Assembly: GCA_020161065.1 (NCBI GenBank)
Contig: JAIUPH010000037.1
Coordinates: 62,001 to 126,000, forward strand
Length of the DNA: 64,000 bases
Source of the DNA: Pseudomonadota bacterium
GTDB lineage: Bacteria > Pseudomonadota > Gammaproteobacteria > Burkholderiales > Burkholderiaceae_C
Direction of reading: 5' to 3'
Positions 10,764 through 64,000 of this stretch are shown in pieces (the stretch's first letter is position 1; each line of letters opens with the position of its first letter). A model generated the notes under the pieces. It did not search any database. It saw nothing but the letters and a program-made list of their open reading frames with translations, and was not told where the DNA came from. A program made the translations under genes and the position numbers.

Positions 10764-11432
10764 TCAGCACAGCCCTTCGCGCCGCGCCAGCCGCATCAGG
10801 CGCTCGATCTCGCGGTCGCGCACGCCGTGCGCGGCCAGCGCGCGCGCGGTCTCGGCCAGGTACTCCAGCGTCGTGCCGTAGCGGCCGCTGGCGTGGCGCA
10901 GCACCTGCAGCACCTGTTCGTCGGCCAGGCGCGGCAGGCAGGCTTCGCTGCGCCGGCTGAGCGTGAAGGCCAGCGCCTGCACGGCACCGCCGGCGGTGCG
11001 GCAGGGCAGCCAGCGCGGGTCGTAGACGCCGGTGGGCATCTCGCGCGCCCACAGCCGGTCGAACTCGTCGTGCGCGCGCTCGCGGGCGAGGCGGAAGACG
11101 ACGCCGCGGCAACTGCCGCCGGGCAGCAGCGCGAACACCAGGCCCGGCCGCTCAGGCGTGCCGCGGTTGATGCGCGAGCGCATGCGCAGCGCGCGGTGCC
11201 AGCCGTGCACCACGGCGTCGCGGCGCTCCACGGCGTCGAACTCGGGCCGCCAGATCAGCGAGGCGTAGCCGAAGACCCACAGCTCGTGGCGGCTGGTCCA
11301 CTGCGCGCGCAGCGCCTGCAGCAGGGCCGCGGGGTCGCGCGCCGCGGGGGCAGCGCACAACGGTGACGGCAACGGGGACGTCGACAGGGACGTCGACAGG
11401 GGCGGCAACGGCGCGGGGTCGGACATTGGCAT
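10764..11432 (-). CDS. Gamma-glutamylcyclotransferase, ChaC-like
   Basis: A protein of about 222 residues of the ChaC family, which cleaves glutathione to 5-oxoproline and Cys-Gly. The substrate-binding loop reads WVFGYASLIWRPEF (GYGSL in most members), and the catalytic glutamate lies in WAREMPTGVYDPRWL. GRYGTTLEYLAET is also typical. The first 30 residues are low-complexity (PPLSTSLSTSPLPSP), encoded by a 12-bp tandem duplication near 11375-11400; a second methionine gives a start at 11426. It is divergent from edd with a gap of about 40 bases. Confidence 0.88.
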   Translation of the reverse strand: MPMSDPAPLPPLSTSLSTSPLPSPLCAAPAARDPAALLQALRAQWTSRHELWVFGYASLIWRPEFDAVERRDAVVHGWHRALRMRSRINRGTPERPGLVFALLPGGSCRGVVFRLARERAHDEFDRLWAREMPTGVYDPRWLPCRTAGGAVQALAFTLSRRSEACLPRLADEQVLQVLRHASGRYGTTLEYLAETARALAAHGVRDREIERLMRLARREGLC

Positions 11433-11445
11433 TTCGATTTGATCA

Positions 11446-11460
11446 TGTAACCCAGTTACT
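11446..11460. promoter_or_regulatory. HexR-like operator upstream of edd
   Basis: The 15-mer TGTAACCCAGTTACT is a near-perfect inverted repeat (TGTAAC / GTTACT, one mismatch). It matches the form of the HexR consensus TGTAATNNNATTACA known for proteobacterial glycolytic and Entner-Doudoroff genes. It lies 15 bases before the edd start, in the most A/T-rich part of the chaC-edd gap. Regulation by a HexR homologue and KDPG release are inference; no hexR gene is in the window. Confidence 0.55.
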
Positions 11461-11474
11461 TCATAATCGAGACC

Positions 11475-13325
<1,851 letters not shown>

Positions 13326-13376
13326 CCTGGGCGTGAGACCCTCCAGCCGCATCCATTGTTCGAGACGAGGCCGACC

Positions 13377-14021
13377 ATGAGCATCCGCAGCAAGCCGATC
13401 AACCCGCTGGACCTGGCCGCGCTGGGCCCGGTGATCCCCGTCATCGTGCTGCAGCGCGAGCAGGACGCGGTGCCGATGGCCGAGGCCTTGCTGGCCGGCG
13501 GCGTCAAGGTGCTGGAAGTGACGCTGCGCACGCCGGCGGCGCTGGCCGGCATCGAGGCCATCGCGCGCGCGCTGCCCGAGGCCGTGGTCGGCGCCGGCAC
13601 GCTGCGCAGCGTGGCCGATGCCGAAGCCGCGCTGGACGCCGGCGCGCGCTTCGGCGTCAGCCCCGGCTACGGCGCCGAACTGGGCCACGCCTGCCGCAAC
13701 CTGGGCCTGCCGCTGCTGCCCGGCGTGGCGACGGCCAGTGAAGTCATGGCCGCCACCGCCGGCGGCTACGACTTCCTGAAGCTGTTTCCGGCCACCGCCG
13801 TCGGCGGCACGGCACTGCTCAAGGCCCTGGCCGGCCCGTTCCCCGACGTCAGCTTCTGCCCCACCGGCGGCATCACGCCCGAGACCGCGCCGCAGTTCCT
13901 GGCGCTGGCCAACGTCAAGGTCTGCGGCGGCTCGTGGCTGACGCCCGCCGACGCGCTGGCCGCCGGCGACTGGGCGCGCATCACGCGGCTGGCGAAAGCG
14001 GCGTCGGCGCTGCGGGGGTGA
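13377..14021 (+). CDS. eda: KDPG / KHG aldolase
   Basis: A 214-residue class I aldolase splitting 2-keto-3-deoxy-6-phosphogluconate into pyruvate and glyceraldehyde-3-phosphate. The Schiff-base lysine is Lys135 in GGYDFLKLFPAT. Other family motifs are VLEVTLRTPAALAGIEAI with the catalytic Glu, VGAGTLRS, GVSPG and PTGGITPETA. ATG at 13377 is preferred over an upstream TTG because of the GAGG-like site before it and standard length. It forms an operon with edd, which together give the complete two-step lower pathway. Confidence 0.97.
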   Translation: MSIRSKPINPLDLAALGPVIPVIVLQREQDAVPMAEALLAGGVKVLEVTLRTPAALAGIEAIARALPEAVVGAGTLRSVADAEAALDAGARFGVSPGYGAELGHACRNLGLPLLPGVATASEVMAATAGGYDFLKLFPATAVGGTALLKALAGPFPDVSFCPTGGITPETAPQFLALANVKVCGGSWLTPADALAAGDWARITRLAKAASALRG

Positions 14022-14022
14022 C

Positions 14023-14046
14023 GGGGTGAAGGGGTGAAGGGGTGAA
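14023..14046 (+). repeat. Tandem 8-bp repeat (GGGGTGAA x3)
   Basis: Three exact head-to-tail copies of GGGGTGAA begin immediately after the eda stop codon, followed by a further GGGG. Likely a slippage-prone simple repeat; no function evident. Confidence 0.7.
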
Positions 14047-14141
14047 GGGGCAGCAGGAGCCAGCCGTTCTGCGCGGTTCGCCGGCGCTCGCGCGGCGTGC
14101 GGCGTCTTATCCGCCCGTCTGCGCAGCCGGCGGTCGCGGGT

Positions 14142-14424
14142 TCAGCGCAGCGGCCATTGGCGAATCCATTGATGATGGGTCGCGCCGACACGGCTCAGCA
14201 CCAGCACGACGCGGTCGGCGGTCCATGCGATGGGCGCGATGGCCAGCAGCGTGGTGTGCAGCCGCGCGGCAGGCGATGTGTTGCGCCAGCTCGGGCGGCG
14301 GGGAGATCGCCAGCCACAAGCCGTAGCCCATCGGCCGCGGGCGCTTGAGGTCGACGTCGGCGGCAAACCGATGAGGCAGCGCCTCGAATCCCGGCAGGGC
14401 AGGCGCGAGCAGCAAAGTGGACAT
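14142..14424 (-). pseudogene. Degraded gene, possibly 2'-5' RNA ligase (ThpR/LigT-like) remnant
   Basis: Minus-strand coding potential is split over two frames. From ATG at 14424 one frame reads MSTLLLAPALPGF... to GYGLWLAISPPPELAQHIA, resembling the N-terminal strand and helix of 2'-5' RNA ligase-like proteins. After roughly base 14280 the sense-like reading moves to another frame: RLHTTLLAIAPIAWTADRVVLVLSRVGATHHQWIRQWPLR. There an HxTL motif and the final ...LSR...WPL strand are recognisable. The piece is about half the usual length and lacks the central region between the two HxT motifs. A frameshift with internal deletion explains this best; a small unrelated intact gene cannot be excluded. 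Confidence 0.45.
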
Positions 14425-14455
14425 TGGGGCTTGCCGTTGGATGGCGCTTCGAATA

Positions 14456-14471
14456 CTGTATAAAAACACAG
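14456..14471. promoter_or_regulatory. LexA box (SOS operator) upstream of dnaE2
   Basis: CTGTATAAAAACACAG matches the CTGT-N8-ACAG LexA consensus exactly, within an A/T-rich stretch that stands out against the G+C-rich surroundings. It is 22 bases before the dnaE2 start, where LexA binding would cover the promoter. It also lies 31 bases from the start of the divergent degraded gene. SOS control of dnaE2 is established for many bacteria. Confidence 0.9.
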
Positions 14472-14493
14472 TTTCCAGCGCAAGCCGCGCGTC

Positions 14494-17400
14494 ATGCCGC
14501 ATCCCTCCAGTCCCCCCCGCCGTGCCGCCGATCTGCCCGGCTACGCCGAGCTGCTGTGCCGCAGCAACTTCAGCTTCCTGACCGGTGCTTCGCACCCCGA
14601 GGAACTGGTGGCGCGTGCGCAGGTGCTGGGTTATGCGGCGCTGGCCATCACCGACGAGTGCACCTTCGCCGGCATCGTGCGCGCGCACGTCGCGGCGAAG
14701 GCGCTGCCGTTCAAGCTGATCATCGGCACGCAGATGCGCCTGGACCTGTCGCCGCCGGCGCCATCGCTGCTGGCCTTGTCCGACGACGAGGACGACCGCG
14801 CGCTGGCCGCGCAGGCCGCCGCCCGGCAGCCGCCGTTGCCCGAGGCCCCGCTGCGCCTGCTGCTGCTGGCGCAGGACGCGCAGGGCTACCGCATGCTGTC
14901 GCAGTGGATCACGGTGGCGCGGCGGCGCGCGCCCAAGGGCCGCTACCGCGCCGAGACGGCCGACGTCGAAGGCCGCACGCCCGACGCGCCGCAACTCGGC
15001 GGGCTGCCCGGCTGCCATGTGCTGCTGGTGCTGGACCACGAGGCGGCATCGGCGCCGGCCGATCTGCTGGCGCAGGCGCTGTGGCTGCGGCACTGGGTGG
15101 GGCCCGAGCGCTGCAGCCTGGGCCTGGTGCTGCAGCGCCGCGCCGACGATGCCCGCCTGGTGGCGCAGGCGCGCGCGCTGGCGGCGCAGACGGGCCTGCC
15201 GATCGCCGCGCTGGGCGACGTGCTGATGCACGTGCGCTCGCGCAAGGCGTTGCAGGACGTGCTGACCGCCACGCGCCTGAAGTGCACCGTGGCCGAGGCC
15301 GGCCTGGCGCTGCAGCCCAATGCCGAGGCCCATCTGCGCAGCCGGTTGCGGCTGTCGATGCAGCACGACCCGGCGTGGCTGCGGCACACGCTGACCATCG
15401 CCGAGCGCTGTCGCTTCTCGCTCGATTCGCTGCGCTACCAGTACCCCAGCGAGGTCGTGCCCGCCGGCCACACGCCGACGAGCTGGCTGCGCGAGCTGAC
15501 CGAGCAGGGCGCGCGCCGGCGCTTCCCCAACGGCTTGACGAAGGCCGTCAGGCACCTGATCGAGCACGAGCTGGCGCTCATCAAGCAGCTCGAATACGAA
15601 GCCTACTTCCTCACCGTGGCCGAGATCGTGCAGTGGGCGCGCTCGAAGAACATCCTGTGCCAGGGCCGCGGCAGCGCCGCCAACTCGGTGGTCTGCTACT
15701 GCCTGGAGGTGACCGCGGTCGACCCCGAGAAGAACCAGATGCTGCTGTTCGAGCGCTTCATCAGCGCCCAGCGCAACGAGCCGCCCGACATCGACGTCGA
15801 CTTCGAGCACCAGCGCCGCGAAGAGGTCATCGAGCACATCTACCAGAAGTACGGCCGCCACCGCACCGCGCTGACGGCGGTGGTCACCAGCTACCGGCCG
15901 CGCTCGGCGCTGCGCGACGTGGGCCGCGCGCTGGGGCTGGACCTCGACCGCATCACCGCCGTCTCCAAGGGCCAGCACTGGTTCGACGGCCGCCGCATCG
16001 CGCCCGAGCGGCTGCTGGAACACGGCATCGACCCCGCTTCGCGCGTCGCCCGCCAGTGGGTCGAGCTAACGCAGCAGTTGATCGGGTTCCCGCGCCACCT
16101 CAGCCAGCACCCGGGCGGCTTCCTGATCGCGCGCGACCACATCGAGATGCTGGTGCCGGTGGAGAACGCCGCGATGGAAGGCCGCACCGTCGTGCAGTGG
16201 GACAAGGACGACCTCGATGCGCTCAAGCTGATCAAGGTCGACATCCTCGCCCTCGGCATGCTCAGCGCGCTGCGCCGCGGGCTGGCCCTGGTCGGCGCCA
16301 AGCTCGGCCGCGCGCTGGAGCTGCACCAGGTGCCGCAGGAAGACCCGGTCGTCTACGACATGCTCGGCCGCGCCGACAGCGTCGGCGTCTTCCAGGTCGA
16401 GAGCCGCGCGCAGATGAGCATGCTGCCGCGGCTGCGGCCGCGCTGCTACTACGACCTGGTGATCGAGGTCGCCATCGTGCGGCCGGGGCCGATCCAGGGC
16501 GGCATGGTCCACCCCTACCTGCGGCGGCGCAACGGCGAGGAGCCGATCGACATCCCCAGGGACGAGCTGAAGCCGGCGCTCGAACGCACCAAGGGCATCC
16601 CGATCTTCCAGGAGCAGGTGATGCAGATCGCGATGATCGCCGCCGAGTTCAGCGCCGGCGAGGCCGACCAGCTGCGCCGCGCGATGGCCGCCTGGAAGCG
16701 CAGGGGCGGCCTCGGGCCCTTCCATGAACGGCTGGTCGGCCGCATGGTGCAGCGCGGCTACGAGCGCGAGTTCGCCGAGCGCATCTTCAAGCAGATGGAG
16801 GGCTTCGGCGAATACGGCTTCCCCGAAAGCCACGCCGCCAGCTTTGCGCTGCTGGTCTACGCCAGCGCCTGGATCAAGTGCCACCACCCGGACGCCTTCT
16901 TGGCCGCGCTGCTCGACAGCCAGCCGATGGGCTTCTACGCGCCGGCGCAGCTGGTGCGCGACGCGCGCGAGCACGGTGTCGCGGTGTTGCCGGTCGACGT
17001 GACTTGCAGCGCCTGGACCAGCGAGCTGGAAGGCGCCGCCGGGGCCGCCGGCGGCCCGCTGCTGCGCGCCGTGCGGCTGGGCCTGGGCCGCATCCACGGC
17101 TTCCCGCAAGCGGCGGCGCAGCGCCTGGTGGCGGCGCGCGATGAAGCACCGTTTGCCAGCGTCGAAGACCTGGCGCGCCGCGCCGCGCTGGACGAGCACC
17201 AGCTCGGCCTGCTGGCCCGCGCCGATGCCTTGCACGGCTTGAGCGGCCACCGCCACCAGGCCGCCTGGGCGGCGGCCGGCGTCGACACCCGCGCCGTGGC
17301 GCTGCTGCGCGACACGCGCACGCACGAGGCGGCGGCCGAGCTGGCCGCGCCGGCGCTGGGCCAGACCCTGGTGGCCGACTACCGCGCCACCGGCCTCAGC

Positions 17401-53288: not shown

Positions 53289-53768
53289 ATGGCGCGCATC
53301 GCCGTTGCCGAGCGCATCCGCCGCCTGCTGCCGGCGCTGTGGCTGGGGCTGCTGGCGGCCGTCGCGCTGATCGGCACGCCGGCGCCCTTTGCCGAACTGG
53401 CGCGCGACGTCGCCGGCCGCGTCGCCGGCCGCATGCTGTTGCGGGAAGCGTGGTTCAGCATCGTCGTGGCGCTGCTGCTGTGGATGCTGGAGCGCGGCCG
53501 CGCGCTGCGTGCCGCGGCGGCCGGCCGCGGCTCGGTGCTCAGCACCGAGATGGTGTTGCTGCTGGCCACGCTGCTGTGCACGCTGCTGGGCTACTTCATC
53601 GTGCAGGCGCTGCTGCCGGCCGCGCGGCTGGGGCAGGGCGCCCTCGGCTTCGCCCAACTGCACGCCGTGAGCGTGGGCTTCTACGCCGTCAAGCTGCTGC
53701 TGGTCGCCACGCTGGCATGGCGTGCGGCGGCGCCGCCAACAGCGGTGCCGGCAGGCCCGCCAGGCTGA
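53289..53768 (+). CDS. DUF4149 domain membrane protein
   Basis: A 159-residue membrane protein with four hydrophobic segments, starting [47 protein letters not shown]. Its fit to DUF4149 and its place directly behind greA agree with the arrangement common in Burkholderiales. Function unknown. The last 80 bases overlap the convergent GGDEF-EAL gene, and the corresponding tail ([12 protein letters not shown]) is low-complexity. Confidence 0.82.
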
Positions 53769-55886
53769 TCACGCTGCCGCCGTTGAGCAGCTTGCGCACG
53801 ACGCGCGCGAACTCCTCCCCGTCCACCGGGCGGCTGGTCAGATAACCCTGGTATTCGTCGCAACGGCGCGCCTTCAGCATGGCCAGCTGCGCTTCGCTTT
53901 CCACGCCCTCGGCCACCACCTTGAGCTTGAGGCTGTGCGCCAGCGCGATGATGGCGCTGACGATGGCCTCGTCGTCGGGGTCGGTGACGAGGTCGCGCAC
54001 GAAGCTGCGGTCGATCTTCAGGCTGGCGATCGGCAGACGCTTGAGGTAGCTCAGCGACGAGTAGCCGGTGCCGAAGTCGTCGATCGACAGCTTGACGCCC
54101 ATGCGGTTGAGTTCGTCGGCGATCTCGCCGCTGACGGCCGAGTCGGCCAGCAGGATCGATTCGGTGACCTCGATCTCCAGGCATTGCGGCGGCAGGCCGT
54201 GGCCCTTGATGGCGCGCGCCACCAGCGCCGGCAGCGCGCGCTCGCGCAGGTGGGTGGAGGCCAGGTTCACGGCCACCGGTATGGTGCCCAGCCCCATGCC
54301 CTGCCACACGGCCACCTGGCGGCAGGCGACGTCGATGGCCCATTCGCCGATCGGGATCACCAGCCCGACGTCCTCGACCAGCGGGATGAACTCGGCCGGC
54401 GGCAGCAGCCCGTTCTCCGGGTGCTGCCAGCGGATCAGCGCCTCGGCGCCGACGATGCGGCCGCTTTCCACGTCCACCCGCGGCTGGTAGTGCAGCACGA
54501 ACTCGTCACGCTCCAGCGCGCGGCGCAGCCGCGTCTCCATCATCAGCCGGTCGAGCGCGCGCGCGTTCATCGAGGCGTCGTAGAACTGGAAGCCGCCGCG
54601 CCCGGCCTCCTTGGCGCGGTACATCGCGGTGTCGGCGTTCTTCAGCAGGGTGTCGATGTCGCGGCCGTCGTCGGGGTAGATGGCCACGCCGACGCTGCCG
54701 CCGACGAAGACCTCGGTGCCTTGCAGCACCAGCGGCTGCTCCAGCGTCTTCACCAGGCGCTGCGCGATGACGCCGACGTCGGCCGGGCGCTGGATGTCGG
54801 AGACCATCACGATGAACTCGTCGCCGCCCAGCCGCGCGATGGCGTGCGTGCCGTCGCCGGCGGTGCGCGTCAGCGCGTCGTAGGCGCGCAGCGACCCGGC
54901 CAGGCGGTCGCCGGCGGTGCGCAGCAGTTCGTCGCCGCAGGTGTGGCCCAGCGTGTCGTTGACGCGCTTGAAGTTGTCGAGGTCGATGAACATGATGGCC
55001 AGCGGCTTGCCGTGGCGCTCGCAGTGCGCCAGCGTGCGCTGCAGCTGCTCGGTGAACAGCAGCCGGTTGGGCAGCCCGGTCAGCGGGTCGTAATAGGCCA
55101 GGCGGCGGATCTCGGCCTCGGCCGTCTTGTGGCGCGTGACGTCGTGCACCGCGCCGGCCAGCCGCACGGGGATGCCGGCGGCGTCGTACTCGATCACCTC
55201 CACCTGCTGGTGCAGGTGGCGCAGGCTGCCGTCGCGGCGGCGCACGCGCAGGTCGTGCGCGAAGGCGTGGTCTTCCGACAGCGCGCGCCGGCAGGCCTGC
55301 TGCCAGCTGGCGTGGTCGTCCTCGTGCACGGCGGCGAAGAAGCCGGCGAAGTCGGCCGCGGCCGGCGCGTCGGCATGGCCGAAGATGCGCGCGGCCTGGT
55401 CGGAGCACAGCACGCGGTCACGCCGCGAGTCCCATTCCCAGTCGCCCATGTCGCCGATGCGCTGCGCGTTGGACAGCCGGCGCTGGCTTTGCGCCAGCTC
55501 GTTGATGGCGCTGCTGGCGCGCAGGATGTAGCGCACGCGGTGGCCGAGGATGGCCCAGTTGATCGGCTTGGTGATGAAGTCGCTGGCGCCCACCTCGAAG
55601 GCGCGCTCGATCGACTTCACGTCGTCGAGCCCGGTCATCATCATCACCGGCACGCGGGTGCCGCCGGGCAGCTTGCGCAGCTCGGCGCAGACGGTGAAGC
55701 CGTCGATCTCGGGCATGCTGACGTCCAGCAGCACGAGGTCGGGCAGTCCCTGGTTCAGCAGCTCCAGGGCGAGGCGACCGTTGGCGGCCTCGGCCACCTC
55801 GAAGCCGGCCTTGACCAGCGTGGCGCGGGTCAGGCGGCGGCCGGCGCTGTCGTCGTCGACGACCAGGATGCGTTGCAGCGCCGGCT

Positions 55887-55890
<4 letters not shown>
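53689..55890 (-). CDS. Response regulator with PAS, GGDEF and EAL domains (cyclic-di-GMP turnover)
   Basis: A 733-residue cytoplasmic regulator. The receiver domain is at about 5-125 ([15 protein letters not shown], Asp56 in [13 protein letters not shown]). A PAS domain at about 150-265 is followed by GGDEF near residue 355 ([14 protein letters not shown] ... [12 protein letters not shown]), the active-site motif intact. EAL from about 455 to 700 has [30 protein letters not shown] and EGVESE, so phosphodiesterase residues are also present. A variable tail of about 35 residues follows. Both cyclase and phosphodiesterase activity are possible; phosphorylation by the overlapping hybrid kinase is the likely switch. 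ATG 55890 overlaps that gene's stop. Confidence 0.95.
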
Positions 55891-58720
<2,830 letters not shown>

Positions 58721-58724
<4 letters not shown>

Positions 58725-59365
58725 GCGTTGGCCCCGGTCGGTAACGGTTGCAATAGCGATTGCGGTTGCGTTGGCCCCGGCACCGGCGCTGGCTCTTCAG
58801 CCTGGCGCAGATGGTCGAAGCTCAGCGCCATCAGCTCGGCGTTGCGCAGCGGCGGCTGCGGCGGCAGCCCGGCCAACTCGCGCAGGACGCGGCCCACGCC
58901 CTTGCTGCCGACCAGCAGCGCCTGCCGCCGCAGCAGCGGTGCGGCGTCGAGCAGCGTGCGCTCGATGCGCGCGCGGAATTCGGCCACCGACTCGCCGCCC
59001 GGCGGCGTGACGCCGGCGGCCAGTTCGTCCTGGGTCTCGGCGATCGGGCGCCGGTTCCAGCCGCCGAGGTAGCGCTCGCGCCAGCCCGGCAGCACGTGCA
59101 GCACCATGGGGCCCAGCGCGGCGCGCACGATGGCCGCGGTCTCGCGCACGCGCAGCAGGTCGCTGCACAGGATCAGCTCGATGCGCGGCCGCCGCGCGGC
59201 GACGTGGCGCGCCAGCTCGATCGCCTGGCGGCGGCCTTCCTCCACCAGCGGCGGGTCGAGGTCGCCGCCGCAGCGCAGGCCGGCCAGGTTGGGCGCGGTG
59301 GCGCCGTGGCGGGCGAACAGCAGCCGCAAGGGGCTGGACGGCGGGGTGGGGTCGGAGGCGGCCAT
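58721..59365 (-). CDS. Histidine phosphatase family protein
   Basis: A 214-residue branch-1 histidine phosphatase. The phosphoacceptor motif is [12 protein letters not shown] (His20 in RHG). [16 protein letters not shown] carries the second conserved Arg, and [16 protein letters not shown] and [19 protein letters not shown] follow. In most members the last block holds a second catalytic His (SHG); here it reads GSKG, so activity may be weakened or altered. A Pro/Gln tail ends the protein. Four-base overlap with the hybrid kinase suggests a function in the same signalling unit, for instance as a phosphorelay phosphatase like SixA. That is inference. Confidence 0.85.
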
Positions 59366-59419
59366 GGCGGACGGGTGGCGAACGGTGTGCGGGCGGTGCG
59401 CTGGCGGTGTGCTGGCGGT

Positions 59420-60586
59420 TCAGACGCGCAGCGCGCTGGCCGGCGCGAAGGGCACCGGCGTGCCGGGAAAGGCCTCGCGCGGCGGCGCGTGCAGCACGCT
59501 CCAGCGGCCGGCGGCGCGCTGCGAGCCGAGCAGCCAGTCGCGGATGAAGGCGGTCTGGTGGCGGTCGGCCAGCAGCGGCGTGTGGCCGGTGTCGGGCACG
59601 TGCATCACCGTGATCGGCTTGCCGCGCTGCATGCGCTCGATGGTCGGCGGCAGCAGCGCGTCCGACAGCAGGCCGTGGATCAGCAGGATGGGGCAGCTCA
59701 CGTGCTGCCACTGGCGCCATTGCTGCAAGCTGCGCGCGGCGTCGCGCCGGTAGGCCTGCAGCGCGCGCACGTCGTGGCGGTAGATGCGGCCGCCTTCGTC
59801 GTCGGACCAGCGCGTCTGGTGGAAGGTCAGGTTGAAGCGGATGTCGTCGGCCAGCGGACCGTCGTTCTTGTGCGACGCGCCCACCTTGCGCAGCAGCTCG
59901 CTGGGCGTGCGGAAGACGTAGTGCCGCGCGATGGTCTCGGCGCGCCGCTTGCGGCGCCGCGCCGGGATGTGCGGGCCGACGTCGTTGAGGATCAACCGTT
60001 CCACCAGCCCGGGGTTGCGGGCGATCAGCTCGATCGACGCGCTGCCGCCCATCGACGAGCCCAGCATCGCCACCGGCCGCCCGCCCAGGTGCAGGATCAT
60101 CTGGCGCAACTGCTCGGCGTAGGTGGCCAGCGAGTAGTCGCCCTCGTCGGCCAGCCAGCCCGAGCGGCCGCGGCCCAGCCAGTCCATGCAGATCACGCGG
60201 AAGCGGTCGGCCAGGTCGGCGGCCAGGTAGTTGAAGCGCATCGCCACGTTGGCCACGCCGCCGCAGCACAGCAGCACCGGCGCATCGACAGGCCCCCATT
60301 CGGCGTAGGCCACGCTGGTCTGGTAGGGCTTGCGCAGGCGCCGCGGCGTCAGCGGCTGCAGGCTCACGGGGTGCTCGTAGTCGAAGCGCTCCAGCCGGAA
60401 CTGGCCGTGGAAGCGCCCCACCACCTGGCTGGCGATGGCCATGTACTGGTCCCAGTCGCGCGCTTCGCGCCGGCGGCCTCGCAGTCGCGGCTCCCACGCG
60501 GGGTCGACCGCGGCGCCGAACAGCTCGGCGGGCACCGTGTCGCCGGCCAGCGCTTCGCGCGGCACGACGGCGAGTTGCGCCTTCAT
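59420..60586 (-). CDS. Alpha/beta hydrolase
   Basis: A 388-residue alpha/beta-hydrolase-fold enzyme. The nucleophile elbow is MLGSSMGGSASIELI (Ser178); VICMDWLGRGRSGW and LNDVGPHIP are typical of the esterase/lactonase/haloalkane-like branch. ILLIHGLLSDALLPP holds the acid, and the histidine lies in HVPDTGHTPLLADRHQTAFI. An N-terminal extension of about 85 residues precedes the core. It lies 54 bases upstream of the phosphatase gene in the same direction. Substrate unknown. Confidence 0.85.
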   Translation of the reverse strand: MKAQLAVVPREALAGDTVPAELFGAAVDPAWEPRLRGRRREARDWDQYMAIASQVVGRFHGQFRLERFDYEHPVSLQPLTPRRLRKPYQTSVAYAEWGPVDAPVLLCCGGVANVAMRFNYLAADLADRFRVICMDWLGRGRSGWLADEGDYSLATYAEQLRQMILHLGGRPVAMLGSSMGGSASIELIARNPGLVERLILNDVGPHIPARRRKRRAETIARHYVFRTPSELLRKVGASHKNDGPLADDIRFNLTFHQTRWSDDEGGRIYRHDVRALQAYRRDAARSLQQWRQWQHVSCPILLIHGLLSDALLPPTIERMQRGKPITVMHVPDTGHTPLLADRHQTAFIRDWLLGSQRAAGRWSVLHAPPREAFPGTPVPFAPASALRV

Positions 60587-60863
60587 GCGGGCCTGCGGCG
60601 GTGGGCGGCGCGGCGGCGCCGGCAGGGGGTCGAAGCGGTAGCCATGGAACGTGACGGTCCTTCCCTCGTCGGCTACCCCGCTGGGCGGCCGCTCGTTGTG
60701 AGCCTGTTTCGTCAGTTCTGGGTTACGTCTTTAGATGGTTTGAGGATTCCCGACGCCAAAAAACAACGGCATTTGGACCTCTTGTCAGGACTTCACCCAT
60801 GCCCGTTCGCGCCGATAAACCTGCAGCGGGGCTGCGCGATGCACGACCCCGAGGAGAGCAATC
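60587..60863. other. Intergenic region between divergent genes
   Basis: This 277-bp gap separates the minus-strand hydrolase from the plus-strand sensor-MFS cassette and must hold promoters for both. The middle (about 60700-60800) is clearly A/T-richer than the rest of the window, with CCAAAAAACAACGG and TTTGGACCTCTTGTC stretches. I see no convincing paired -35/-10 set, palindromic operator or RNA gene. A short open frame starting at 60799 appears to be chance. Confidence 0.5.
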
Positions 60864-61673
60864 GTGGATTCAACCCAGCGCCGCATGGTCGGAGTCGCGG
60901 TGGCGGTATGCGCCTTTGCCGTCGGCATGGCCGGGCTGCTCAACTACTTCAAGTACCGCTCGACGGCCGGCCGCATCATCGAGCAGCGGCTCACCTTCAC
61001 AGGCAAGTCGATCGAGAGCAGCATCCAGTCGTCGCTGTCGCTGGGCCTGCAGTTCGCCGACCTGGCCACGCTGCCGGCGATGATGGAGCGCGAGCGCGCC
61101 ACCGACGACCTGATCCTGGGCATCGACGTCTTCGACGCCGACGGCCGCCCGCTCTACAGCACCGACCGGCTGCGCGGCAACCGCGCCGCGCCGGCGGCCT
61201 GGGTGGCCGCGGCGCGCAAGGCCGGCAATCACAACTGGGTGGTGCACGACGACGAGGAGTCGGCCGTCGGCATCGCGATCCAGAACAACTTCGGGCTGAC
61301 CATCGGCCACCTGGCGCTGCGCTACTCCGACGAGCGCGTGCGTGCCGCCGCGCAGGCGGTGGCGCGCGACCTGGCGGTCAACTCGGCCGTGCTGTTCGGG
61401 GTCTCGGCCAGCCTGGCCTCGCTGGCGCTGGTGGCGGTGATGCGCCGCCAGGCGCACGACATGCTGCGCGTCGAAGGCGCGCTGCGCAACGACGGTCCGT
61501 CGCGCGGCAGTGGCGTAGCGGGCCTCGGCGGCATGGGCGGCATCGGCGGCATCGGCGGCGGCCGCAGCGGGCCCTTCCGTACGGCGCTGCAGAGCTTCGG
61601 CGAGACGGTGCACGAGGCCGAGGCCGAGCTGACCGCGGCGAGGCTGGAACTGCAGCGCGGGGCGGCGCCATGA
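60864..61673 (+). CDS. Two-TM protein with Cache-like extracytoplasmic region, no output domain
   Basis: A 269-residue membrane protein. TM1 spans about residues 7-27. An extracytoplasmic region of about 140 residues resembles a single Cache/PAS-like sensor (SIQSSLSLGLQFADLATLPAMMERERATDDLILGIDVFDADGRPLYST ... FGLTIGHLALRYSDE). TM2 is near 174-195. The cytoplasmic part is short: a Gly-rich linker (GLGGMGGIGGIGGG) and a predicted helix at the end (FGETVHEAEAELTAARLELQ). There is no kinase, GGDEF or MCP output. The GTG start has GAGGAGA upstream. It overlaps the next gene by four bases, so it probably works as its partner subunit. No family name can be given. Confidence 0.75.
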   Translation: MDSTQRRMVGVAVAVCAFAVGMAGLLNYFKYRSTAGRIIEQRLTFTGKSIESSIQSSLSLGLQFADLATLPAMMERERATDDLILGIDVFDADGRPLYSTDRLRGNRAAPAAWVAAARKAGNHNWVVHDDEESAVGIAIQNNFGLTIGHLALRYSDERVRAAAQAVARDLAVNSAVLFGVSASLASLALVAVMRRQAHDMLRVEGALRNDGPSRGSGVAGLGGMGGIGGIGGGRSGPFRTALQSFGETVHEAEAELTAARLELQRGAAP

Positions 61674-63805
61674 GCGGCGCGCCGCAAGCCAACTACCTGC
61701 GCCGCATCTACCTGCGCCTGGCCGGCGTGGTGATGCTGGCCGTGGTGCTGGCGCTGGCCGCCAACGCCGTGCTGTCGCACCGTGCCTTCGAGCGCGCGCT
61801 GGTGCCGGAGATGAACAAGAAGGTGGCCATCGTCGGCAACAGCATCCGCGTGCTGGTGCTCAAGGCGGTGGAAAACGGCATCGACTTTCGCGACCTCTAC
61901 GGCGTCGACGAGAAGTTCGCCGAGGTCGACGACGACATCCCCGAGGTCACCTACTTCAGCATCACCGACACCGAGGGCAAGGTGCTGTACCAGCGGCCGT
62001 CGACCACCGCGGTGATCGCCCAGCACCTGGCTTCGCCGGCGGTGCTGGCGGCCATGCGCGCGCCCGAGCAGGTGCCGCTGTCGGTGCGCGTGGGCTCGCA
62101 CTACATCGTCTCGCTGCCGATTGTCGGCGAGGGCAAGCCGCTGGGCATGCTGCACCTGGGCGTCGACGTGCGCTTCGTCGACGACGTGATGCTGGAGATG
62201 ATGTACGACCTGCTGGTCGTGCTGGTGGTCTCGCTGTTCTTCACGCTGGAGCTGCTGCACTTCATGGCAGGCGCGCGGCTGGAGCAGGCGCTGGCGGCGC
62301 TGGGCGACGTGTTCAAGCGCGGCGCGGCGGGCGACTTCGGCACCGCCGGCCGGCCGCCGAAGGCCGAGCTGGCCTTCGGCAGCGTGATCCGGCTGCTGGA
62401 GTCGACGCTCGCGCGCGTCAATGCCGCCTACCTGGCGCTGGCCGGCGAGCTGGAGGCGGCGCGCAAGCGCCCGGCGCACGAGCGCCCGCCGGGGCTGGCC
62501 GCGGCGCAGGGGCGGCTGCAGGCACTGGGGCGGCGCTTTCGCTTCGGCGCTGGCGGGGCCGACGGCGCACGGCCGGCCGACGGCAGCCTGGCCAAGGTGC
62601 GTGCGCCGCTGTTCATCTTCATCCTCGCCGAGGAGCTGACGCGTTCGTTCCTGCCGGGCTACGTGCAGGAGCTGCTGGTGCCGATTCCCGGGCTGTCGCC
62701 GCAGATGGTGGTGGGGCTGCCGATCGCGCTGTTCATGCTGATCGTCGCCGTCGGCCAGCCGTATTTCGGCGTGCTGTCCGAGCGCTGGGGCACGCGGCGG
62801 CTGATGTTCTGCGGCGCCGCGGTGGCCGCGGTGGGCTTCGTCGCCTCGGCGCTGGCGGCCTCGGTGATCGACCTGCTGGCCTGGCGCTCGCTGTGCGCGC
62901 TGGGCTATGCGATGGTCTTCGTCGCCGCCCAGGGCTACGTGCTGGAGCATTCGACGGCCGAGAACCGGGCGGTCAACATGGCCACCTTCGTCGGCGCCAT
63001 CATGGTGGCCACGGTGTGCGGGCCGTCGATCGGCGGCATCCTGGCCGACAACCTGGGCGAGCGCTGGACGCTGGCGCTGGCCGCGCTGCTGGCGGCGGCC
63101 TCGCTGCTGAGCATCCAGCAGCTGCCCGACCGCCCGGCCGCCGGCGCCGACGGCAGCGCCGAGGCGCGACCGCCGGCGCGCGTGCCCAAGCTGTCGGAAG
63201 TGGGCCGGCTGCTGGCCAACCGCCGCTTCCTGACGCTGACCGCGCTGGCCGCGATGCCGGCCAAGATCCTGCTGACCGGGCTGTGCTTCTACCTGATGCC
63301 GCTGTACGTCACCAGCGCCGGCGGCAGCCAGGCGATGGCCGGCCGCGTGCTGATGACCTACGGCGTGATGGTGGTGCTGCTGTCGCCGCTGGCGGCGCGC
63401 TGGGCGTCGTCGCGCGAGCGCATGGAGTGGCTGGTCGGCGGCGGCCTGATGCTGTCGGGCCTGGGCGGGCTGCTGCTGCTGATCGGCCCCGACATCGCCT
63501 TCGTCTTCGGCGCGATGGTGCTCATCGGCGCCGGCCAGGCGATGTCGATCTCGGCGCAGGCGGCGCTGGTCAGCGAGCACTGCGGCCGCTCGATCGCCGA
63601 GCTGGGCGAGGGCGCGGTGTTCGGCGTCTACCGGCTGCTGGAGCGGCTGGGCAACGCCGCCGGCCCGCTGCTCGGCGCCGCGCTGGTGATGGCCTACGGC
63701 TACCGCACCGGCTTCATTGCACTGGGCGGCTTCGTCTGCTGCTGCGGGCTGCTGTTCGTGCTGGCCACGCGGCGGCCGCCGACGCCGGTGCCGGTGCCGG
63801 CCTGA
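61670..63805 (+). CDS. MFS transporter fused to an N-terminal extracytoplasmic sensor module
   Basis: A 711-residue fusion. Residues about 12-34 are TM1. About 35-180 form a Cache-like extracytoplasmic domain (AEVDDDIPEVTYFSITDTEGKVLYQRP ... YIVSLPIVGEGKPLGMLHLGVDV). TM2 is near 183-205, followed by a HAMP-like and helical linker (LEQALAALGDVFKRGAAGDF ... LARVNAAYLALAGELEAARK) to about 290. From about 310 a complete twelve-helix MFS permease follows, with motif A-like GVLSERWGTRRLMF. The N-terminal half looks like a chemoreceptor or kinase sensor, but the output is a transporter. The frame is continuous across the joint. Substrate and direction unknown. Confidence 0.8.
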   Translation: MSGAPQANYLRRIYLRLAGVVMLAVVLALAANAVLSHRAFERALVPEMNKKVAIVGNSIRVLVLKAVENGIDFRDLYGVDEKFAEVDDDIPEVTYFSITDTEGKVLYQRPSTTAVIAQHLASPAVLAAMRAPEQVPLSVRVGSHYIVSLPIVGEGKPLGMLHLGVDVRFVDDVMLEMMYDLLVVLVVSLFFTLELLHFMAGARLEQALAALGDVFKRGAAGDFGTAGRPPKAELAFGSVIRLLESTLARVNAAYLALAGELEAARKRPAHERPPGLAAAQGRLQALGRRFRFGAGGADGARPADGSLAKVRAPLFIFILAEELTRSFLPGYVQELLVPIPGLSPQMVVGLPIALFMLIVAVGQPYFGVLSERWGTRRLMFCGAAVAAVGFVASALAASVIDLLAWRSLCALGYAMVFVAAQGYVLEHSTAENRAVNMATFVGAIMVATVCGPSIGGILADNLGERWTLALAALLAAASLLSIQQLPDRPAAGADGSAEARPPARVPKLSEVGRLLANRRFLTLTALAAMPAKILLTGLCFYLMPLYVTSAGGSQAMAGRVLMTYGVMVVLLSPLAARWASSRERMEWLVGGGLMLSGLGGLLLLIGPDIAFVFGAMVLIGAGQAMSISAQAALVSEHCGRSIAELGEGAVFGVYRLLERLGNAAGPLLGAALVMAYGYRTGFIALGGFVCCCGLLFVLATRRPPTPVPVPA

Positions 63806-63858
63806 AGGCCAGGTCCCAAGGCCGGCCGCTAACCCAGGAATCAAACGGAAGACCCGAC

Positions 63859-64000
63859 ATGACGCTCGAACTGAACCGCCGCCAATGGATGGCCGCTGCG
63901 CTGGGCGGCACGCTGGCCGGCGCCGCCGCGCCCTCGGTGCTGGCCGCCGCGGCGAAGCCGCTGCGCATCTACGCCATCACCTTCCGCGGCATGACCGAGG
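63859..64000 (+). CDS. Tat-signal substrate-binding protein, N-terminal fragment (runs off the window)
   Basis: The first 47 codons are present. The N-terminus has a twin-arginine-type signal (NRRQWMAAALGGTLAGAAAPSVLAAA), after which the mature start KPLRIYAITFRGMTE resembles uncharacterised ABC-type periplasmic binding proteins. It follows the sensor-MFS fusion by 53 bases with a weak GGAA-type ribosome site. With no view of the rest, the assignment is tentative. As third member of the cassette it would supply a ligand-binding protein to the sensor domains. Confidence 0.55.
   Translation, partial: MTLELNRRQWMAAALGGTLAGAAAPSVLAAAAKPLRIYAITFRGMTE

Follow-up and report, generated by a model that had tools for sequence, protein, structure and literature searches.

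The window analysed here is a 64,000-nucleotide stretch of contig JAIUPH010000037.1 (assembly GCA_020161065.1) from a bacterium of the Burkholderiaceae_C. At its downstream end lie three plus-strand genes, here called A, B and C, which together look like a real, uncharacterised way to couple sensing with transport. Gene A (60864..61673) encodes a 269-residue sensor with two transmembrane (TM) helices and a single Cache domain (about residues 29-170; 60948..61373, placed by hydropathy and a fold model). Gene B (61670..63805; 711 residues) encodes a Cache-type sensor fused to a major facilitator superfamily (MFS) permease. The extracytoplasmic sensor of B spans about residues 38-178 (61781..62203), as judged by a profile match and by the strands and helices of a weak model; it is followed by a cytoplasmic linker (about residues 201-305; 62270..62584) and an antiporter-like MFS domain (about residues 306-702; 62585..63775). 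Gene C (63859..64902, of which 63859..64000 lie inside the window) encodes a periplasmic binding protein of the PF04392 family. A first-pass annotation of the DNA had described a TM-sensor-TM gene A, a like sensor in B running in frame into an MFS permease, and a binding-protein gene next downstream. That observation is confirmed on each point, and it stands as wider than the annotation had it: the annotation had noted neither the signalling genes around the cassette, nor the divergent gene set upstream of A, nor the antiporter-like character of the permease.

The sensor and the permease of B share a single reading frame in 54 of 55 loci, the window included, and the remaining locus is cut by a contig end. 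A frameshift or sequencing error at the joint, which the first-pass annotation had named as a danger to its reading, is therefore not what joins the two halves. The loci come from many separate assemblies, and an assembly artefact or a chance joining of two genes is refuted; we give it next to no weight. The 55 loci do not include L102, a draft genome in which B is split into several frames between A and C (L102:1933-4278). A is the next upstream gene on the same strand in 36 of the 55 loci, overlapping B by four bases in 21 of them, and in 15 an A-like sensor, the B sensor and the MFS domain form one chain (L037, L040-L044, L062, L065, L068-L070, L095, L098, L100 and L103; 14 called by length and L037 by inspection). 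With four contig-edge loci at which A cannot be judged set aside (L078, L079, L096 and L097), all 51 testable loci have A and B either adjacent or fused. Mapped onto a tree built from 51 permease domains, fusion and separation require six changes of state, counted without three contig-edge rows, and five of these are forced by well-supported branches, indicating that fusion or splitting arose more than once. The proposal that A acts as a co-sensor is thus well supported by natural fusion to B in 15 of the 51 loci and by adjacency in the other 36. A second A-like gene, its partner not visible, was seen near a contig end in genome G083 (L105:203-1051).

C is about as constant as A. The PF04392 (ABC_sub_bind) profile matches it with 78.5 bits (cut-off 25.9), and in 51 of 55 loci it directly follows B on that gene's strand; it stands upstream of A in L059 and nearby on the opposite strand in L093 and L103, and none was seen in L079. 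For comparison, 56 cassette loci were set against 20 ordinary MFS loci picked from the match list of the family sample, the profile match nearest the middle being used as the centre gene; L102, L032 (a short contig) and L106 and L107 (no Cache domain) were kept out. C lies within two genes of B in 55 of the 56 cassette loci and in 0 of the 20 controls, which bears out the first-pass annotation in treating it as part of a three-gene set. C as a component of an ABC transporter was considered and rejected, since no ABC permease or ATPase gene adjoins it: the first such genes downstream, which we take to be pst-like, lie ~6 kb further along and are preceded by their own binding-protein gene. No TRAP or TTT permease subunits were found either, the permease of B being of the MFS_1 type. 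In L062, a second small binding protein (L062:5581-6270; SBP_bac_3, E 3e-6) directly follows C within a gene set resembling that of a type VI secretion system (T6SS).

The permease half of B is matched by the MFS_1 profile at E 5.8e-40 (137.7 bits, cut-off 33.4). Among proteins of solved structure, the B profile matches NorA (2.1e-14) and EmrB (5.4e-14) best, followed by VMAT, and the best fold matches are VMAT and NorA, so that the permease appears to resemble these proton-antiporter exporters most. In an alignment of 54 B proteins, R406 and G455 are invariant (54/54 each) and G451 (51/54) and G374 (50/54) nearly so; we take these residues to sit in motifs B (R406), C (G455 and G451) and A (G374) of drug:H+ antiporters. 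Conservation is higher in the two permease halves (0.49 and 0.47) than in the sensor (0.37), and by a rough alignment the 54 proteins keep on average 19.5 of 20 permease signature residues, with a minimum of 16. The solved relatives, the conservation and the near-invariant motif residues point to an active proton-coupled exporter. Because the permease is antiporter-like, export by B seems likelier than uptake. The earlier proposal that ligand sensing gates transport is plausible.

The sensory parts are more divergent. Hydropathy and the predicted fold place a Cache fold between the two TM helices of A, for which a search by sequence found no relatives in the PDB at E up to 1. B matches the sCache_3_2 profile at E 9e-5 (23.0 bits, below the cut-off of 28.4). 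In a Pfam scan, the A chain has no signalling output domain and the B chain carries the MFS domain instead; judged by sequence, the permease in B occupies the position of an output domain. The first-pass annotation had expected HAMP-like linkers between the two halves, which holds for some relatives: 3 of 10 linkers match HAMP (L075, 3.3e-5; L076, 8.4e-5; L038, 0.012), none over the 25-bit cut-off, and the linker of the window's own B has no match. The three matches make signal transmission through the linker plausible, though not general.

The same type of sensor also occurs with other outputs. In eight loci (L040-L043, L060, L063, L093 and L095), a second A-like gene is followed by a protein with a B-type sensor, here called X, and then by a two-TM SpoIIE protein. 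Profile alignment of B with X spans the sensor (E 2.8e-14), and five X proteins tested keep 6-12 of the 20 permease signature residues by a rough alignment; X is shortened in L040, L042 and L095. X proteins were rejected as full MFS permeases, as the profile-profile alignment covered the sensor only and the signature residues are largely lost. X genes with decayed or shortened permeases stand beside SpoIIE genes at L041:1392-3392, L043:1805-3694, L042:10409-11578, L040:3742-4536, L060:12570-14078 and L063:12209-14164. In L098 (12954-15761), a match to the B-type sensor and SpoIIE share one frame of 935 residues adjoining a second A-like gene. Together with the X proteins, this frame indicates that the sensor type is modular and that the slot behind it takes different outputs. 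A SpoIIE partner for the window's own cassette was considered and rejected: its genome has four SpoIIE matches, three of them barely over the cut-off and none on the window's contig.

We consider a sensor-pair-controlled exporter to be the best explanation of A, B and C as a whole, with a probability of about 0.5. The comparisons above support a conserved unit, paired sensors, an exporter-like permease, a constant binding protein and a modular sensor. A, B and C would then form one unit of the inner membrane and periplasm, in which A and B work jointly as a matched pair of Cache sensors, as their natural fusions suggest, and the MFS domain of B, by homology and motifs, probably fills the place usually held by a kinase, cyclase or chemoreceptor domain. 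C may bind a small molecule in the periplasm, perhaps an amino-acid-like one, and hand it to the A/B sensors; alternatively, these may bind the ligand themselves. We infer that the resulting movement of the Cache pair would travel along the second TM helix of each sensor and the cytoplasmic linker to the MFS domain, altering its export activity. Judging from gene neighbourhoods, a signalling enzyme encoded close by may also be informed by the sensors or by the transporter's state; in the window this role would fall to a soluble hybrid kinase and the REC-GGDEF-EAL protein paired with it, both described below.

Signalling genes are frequent around the cassette. Genes for dCache kinases or cyclases lie within six genes in 15 of the 56 loci and SpoIIE phosphatase genes nearby in 13, against 0 of 20 controls for each. 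Membrane dCache-HAMP-Ser/Thr kinases were identified by domain scans in L033, L037, L080, L081 and L089, and membrane cyclase-type neighbours in L076, L084, L086 and L094, with further loci by similarity; the kinase counted for L090 has tetratricopeptide repeats (TPRs) and no Cache domain. The domains scanned in named examples were those of VgrG, FHA, secretin, kinase, cyclase, SpoIIE, STAS, GGDEF, EAL, alanine racemase, ATP-grasp and formyltransferase-like proteins, and genes in the remaining loci took their labels from resemblance to these examples; the labels ClpV, Hcp, TssF, SctU, SctR, YhbY/FtsH and pst are our presumptive assignments. Behind the cassette in L038, two proteins start with a CNLACPYC motif (11070-16069) and are presumably radical-SAM-like.

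Several results weigh against a sensor-controlled exporter. Sugar and organic-acid MFS families and transporters also match the permease, more weakly or by fold, so the permease cannot be assigned to exporters exclusively, and every NCBIfam efflux model stays below its cut-off on B (the best, TIGR00880, gives 88.9 bits against 131). The predicted model of B is weak, with the linker under 50 in predicted local distance difference test (pLDDT) score, and the linker is poorly conserved across loci and nearly absent in L037. A signalling gene of any class is nearby in 37 of 56 loci against 7 of 20 controls (p 0.02; like the other p values given here it is rough, as the loci are related by descent), but the reference proteins used for labelling had themselves been taken from cassette loci, which biases this and the other neighbour contrasts towards the reading we favour. 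Neither histidine kinases (6/56 against 2/20) nor GGDEF/EAL proteins (6/56 against 5/20), the two classes present in the window, are enriched, and neither are genes of the T6SS or the type III secretion system (T3SS; 8/56 against 1/20, p 0.43). Finally, permease orthologues on plasmids of Azospirillum ramasamyi and Azospirillum sp. B510 (L106:8539-10224 and L107:8536-10212), with 43-45% identity over the permease, have no Cache domains. If they start at a conserved ATG that we chose upstream of the annotated start, they still have four N-terminal hydrophobic segments, which align with the sensors' four TM helices in the fused A-B chains. C was not seen in their neighbourhood; a hydrolase gene, a phosphatase gene and the gene of an sCache_2-bearing chemoreceptor follow downstream. 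Homologues with separate, unrelated sensor and permease genes and an unkept gene order would, according to the first-pass annotation, have spoken against it. These two plasmids come near to such a case.

The same evidence can be read in other ways. The MFS domain may move little or nothing, so that A, B and C act as a transceptor, a receptor complex that drives whichever kinase, cyclase, phosphatase or c-di-GMP enzyme is encoded nearby. We regard this as doubtful, although it carries the most weight among the alternatives. It would account for signalling neighbours of several kinds, for the persistence of X proteins with decayed permeases beside SpoIIE, for the occurrence of some relatives within or alongside T6SS or T3SS gene sets (several of their names being presumptive), and for the window's kinase, which has no TM segment and might need a membrane input. 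It sits poorly with a permease that keeps at least 16 of 20 signature residues in each B protein and is better conserved than its sensor, and with Cache-free orthologues that persist beside enzymes. By the references used, moreover, no signalling gene is recognised in 19 of the 56 loci, among which are some short contigs; the window's own stretch (L001) belongs to this group only because it stops short of the kinase gene. C might also simply deliver substrate to the MFS domain, with the Cache domains docking or capturing it and regulating nothing. The constancy of C and the classing of PF04392 members as solute-binding proteins are consistent with such a transporter, whereas the resemblance of the permease to exporters and the related sensor pairs beside SpoIIE argue against it, making it unlikely.

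Still less likely as the whole explanation is a cycle in which a signal derived from an amino acid is produced or modified by neighbouring enzymes, leaves the cell through B and is sensed on its return by C and the A/B pair. The enzymes concerned are of several types. A GNAT-like family occurs in 13 of 60 loci (L037, L040-L044, L059, L060, L064, L094, L095, L098 and L109), far from B in L042, and for at least two members (L040 and L060) Pfam gives no match at E up to 0.1. ATP-grasp ligases are present in L068-L070 and L109, the last resembling dapdiamide A synthase (E 2.9e-61, far below that model's cut-off), and alanine racemase in L040, L095 and L098. An alpha/beta hydrolase lies near A-B-C in 9 of 56 loci and a histidine phosphatase in 7 of 56, the window's own phosphatase falling outside the stretch counted; the two occur in the clade of the window and in Azospirillum. 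However, the enzymes differ from locus to locus, in roughly half of the loci none is seen, and the GNAT-like family gives p 0.055 in the neighbour comparison (10/56 against 0/20; L040 and L060 were missed because another reference scored higher there). A broader form of the sensor-controlled exporter, which we put forward tentatively, would be a receptor class in which a Cache heterodimer is loaded by a binding protein and an external ligand opens or shuts a proton-driven exporter on the same chain; in many relatives the exporter and the amino-acid-modifying and signalling enzymes may form a self-made signal circuit of making, exporting and sensing.

Coupling of sensors to transporters is, as a general kind, already known, and parts of the cassette have counterparts in established systems. 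In LuxP-LuxQ and TorT-TorS, a periplasmic binding protein is encoded with a membrane sensor, as here, but the sensor chain of the cassette ends in a permease. TRAP and TTT systems combine a binding protein with a non-ABC secondary transporter; the cassette has an exporter-like MFS and two Cache-type domains. The drug:H+ antiporters NorA, EmrB and VMAT are alike in sequence and fold to the permease half and in what we take to be its motif residues, and the cassette differs from them by its N-terminal extracytoplasmic sensor, partner A and binding protein C. The known bacterial Cache sensors have a signalling enzyme or a chemoreceptor tail at their end. In Cache receptors such as kinases, chemoreceptors, cyclases, SpoIIE phosphatases and Ser/Thr kinases, the output is a signalling module, and here it is an MFS permease instead. 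Excerpts of a 2016 survey of Cache domains (PMC4822843) list signalling enzymes, transcription factors and ion channels as outputs and do not contain the words MFS or transporter. Excerpts on PknS, which has a TPR ectodomain, likewise lack the words major facilitator and transporter. Transporter-like sensors, namely the SLC5/STAC kinases (such as CbrA and CrbS) and Snf3/Rgt2, are reported to unite permease fold and sensory function in a single protein, as B would; the SLC5/STAC permease is fused to a kinase, whereas in B an extracytoplasmic sensor precedes the permease, and the Pfam scan finds neither an SLC5 permease nor a kinase on the B chain. In agreement with the first-pass annotation, which knew of no such system, no description of an MFS protein with a Cache sensor and a binding protein appears among the matches listed in the open literature, which is weak evidence of absence.

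If gating is shown, there is a realistic chance of a new receptor class. A conserved system in which a Cache sensor ends in a transporter would let one ask whether an extracellular ligand controls a secondary transporter allosterically, and the fused and split forms, the second copies with decayed permeases and the Cache-free Azospirillum orthologues provide natural test material. Lying close to Ser/Thr kinases, SpoIIE phosphatases and cyclases, the cassette offers a so far unstudied input to pathways that often have no known signal.

Upstream of A in the window, a divergent minus-strand gene set (53689-60586) encodes an alpha/beta hydrolase (59420..60586), a histidine phosphatase superfamily protein (58721..59365), a hybrid histidine kinase with PAS-PAS-HisKA-HATPase-REC-REC-Hpt architecture and no TM segment by hydropathy (55887..58724), and a REC-PAS-GGDEF-EAL protein (53689..55890). 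The phosphatase and kinase genes overlap by four bases, as do the kinase and REC-PAS-GGDEF-EAL genes. The 277-base spacer between the two gene sets (60587..60863) contains no sigma-70-type promoter and one terminator-like site (60691-60703; 0.3 expected in shuffles). The hydrolase, phosphatase and hybrid kinase are retained beside A-B-C in L034-L036, and an EAL-type gene in L035 and L036. In L080-L083, the hydrolase and phosphatase are retained and a Ser/Thr kinase stands between them and A (a dCache domain was identified in those of L080 and L081). In the window, it may be the soluble hybrid kinase that listens to A/B.

Many distantly related bacteria carry the A-B-C set, often with signalling genes close by. 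In genome samples drawn from Pseudomonadota, relatives of B at E up to 1e-40 were found in 14 of 397 genomes of the phylum sample, 6 of 369 of the class sample and 23 of 399 of the order sample, the window's own genome counted each time; these frequencies are lower bounds, as the two best candidates per genome were scored. Relatives were also found in the sample of the window's family, and three loci came from genome contigs with B as the query. Two genomes of the same genus in the family sample gave weak MFS matches only, and the distribution of the cassette is therefore patchy. On the permease tree, Motiliproteus (Oceanospirillaceae) groups with the Burkholderiales loci L080-L083 (support 99/93), which suggests horizontal transfer. 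The full A-B-C set is also carried by Azospirillum brasilense Sp7, on a plasmid (L109), and by Vibrio sp. THAF190c.

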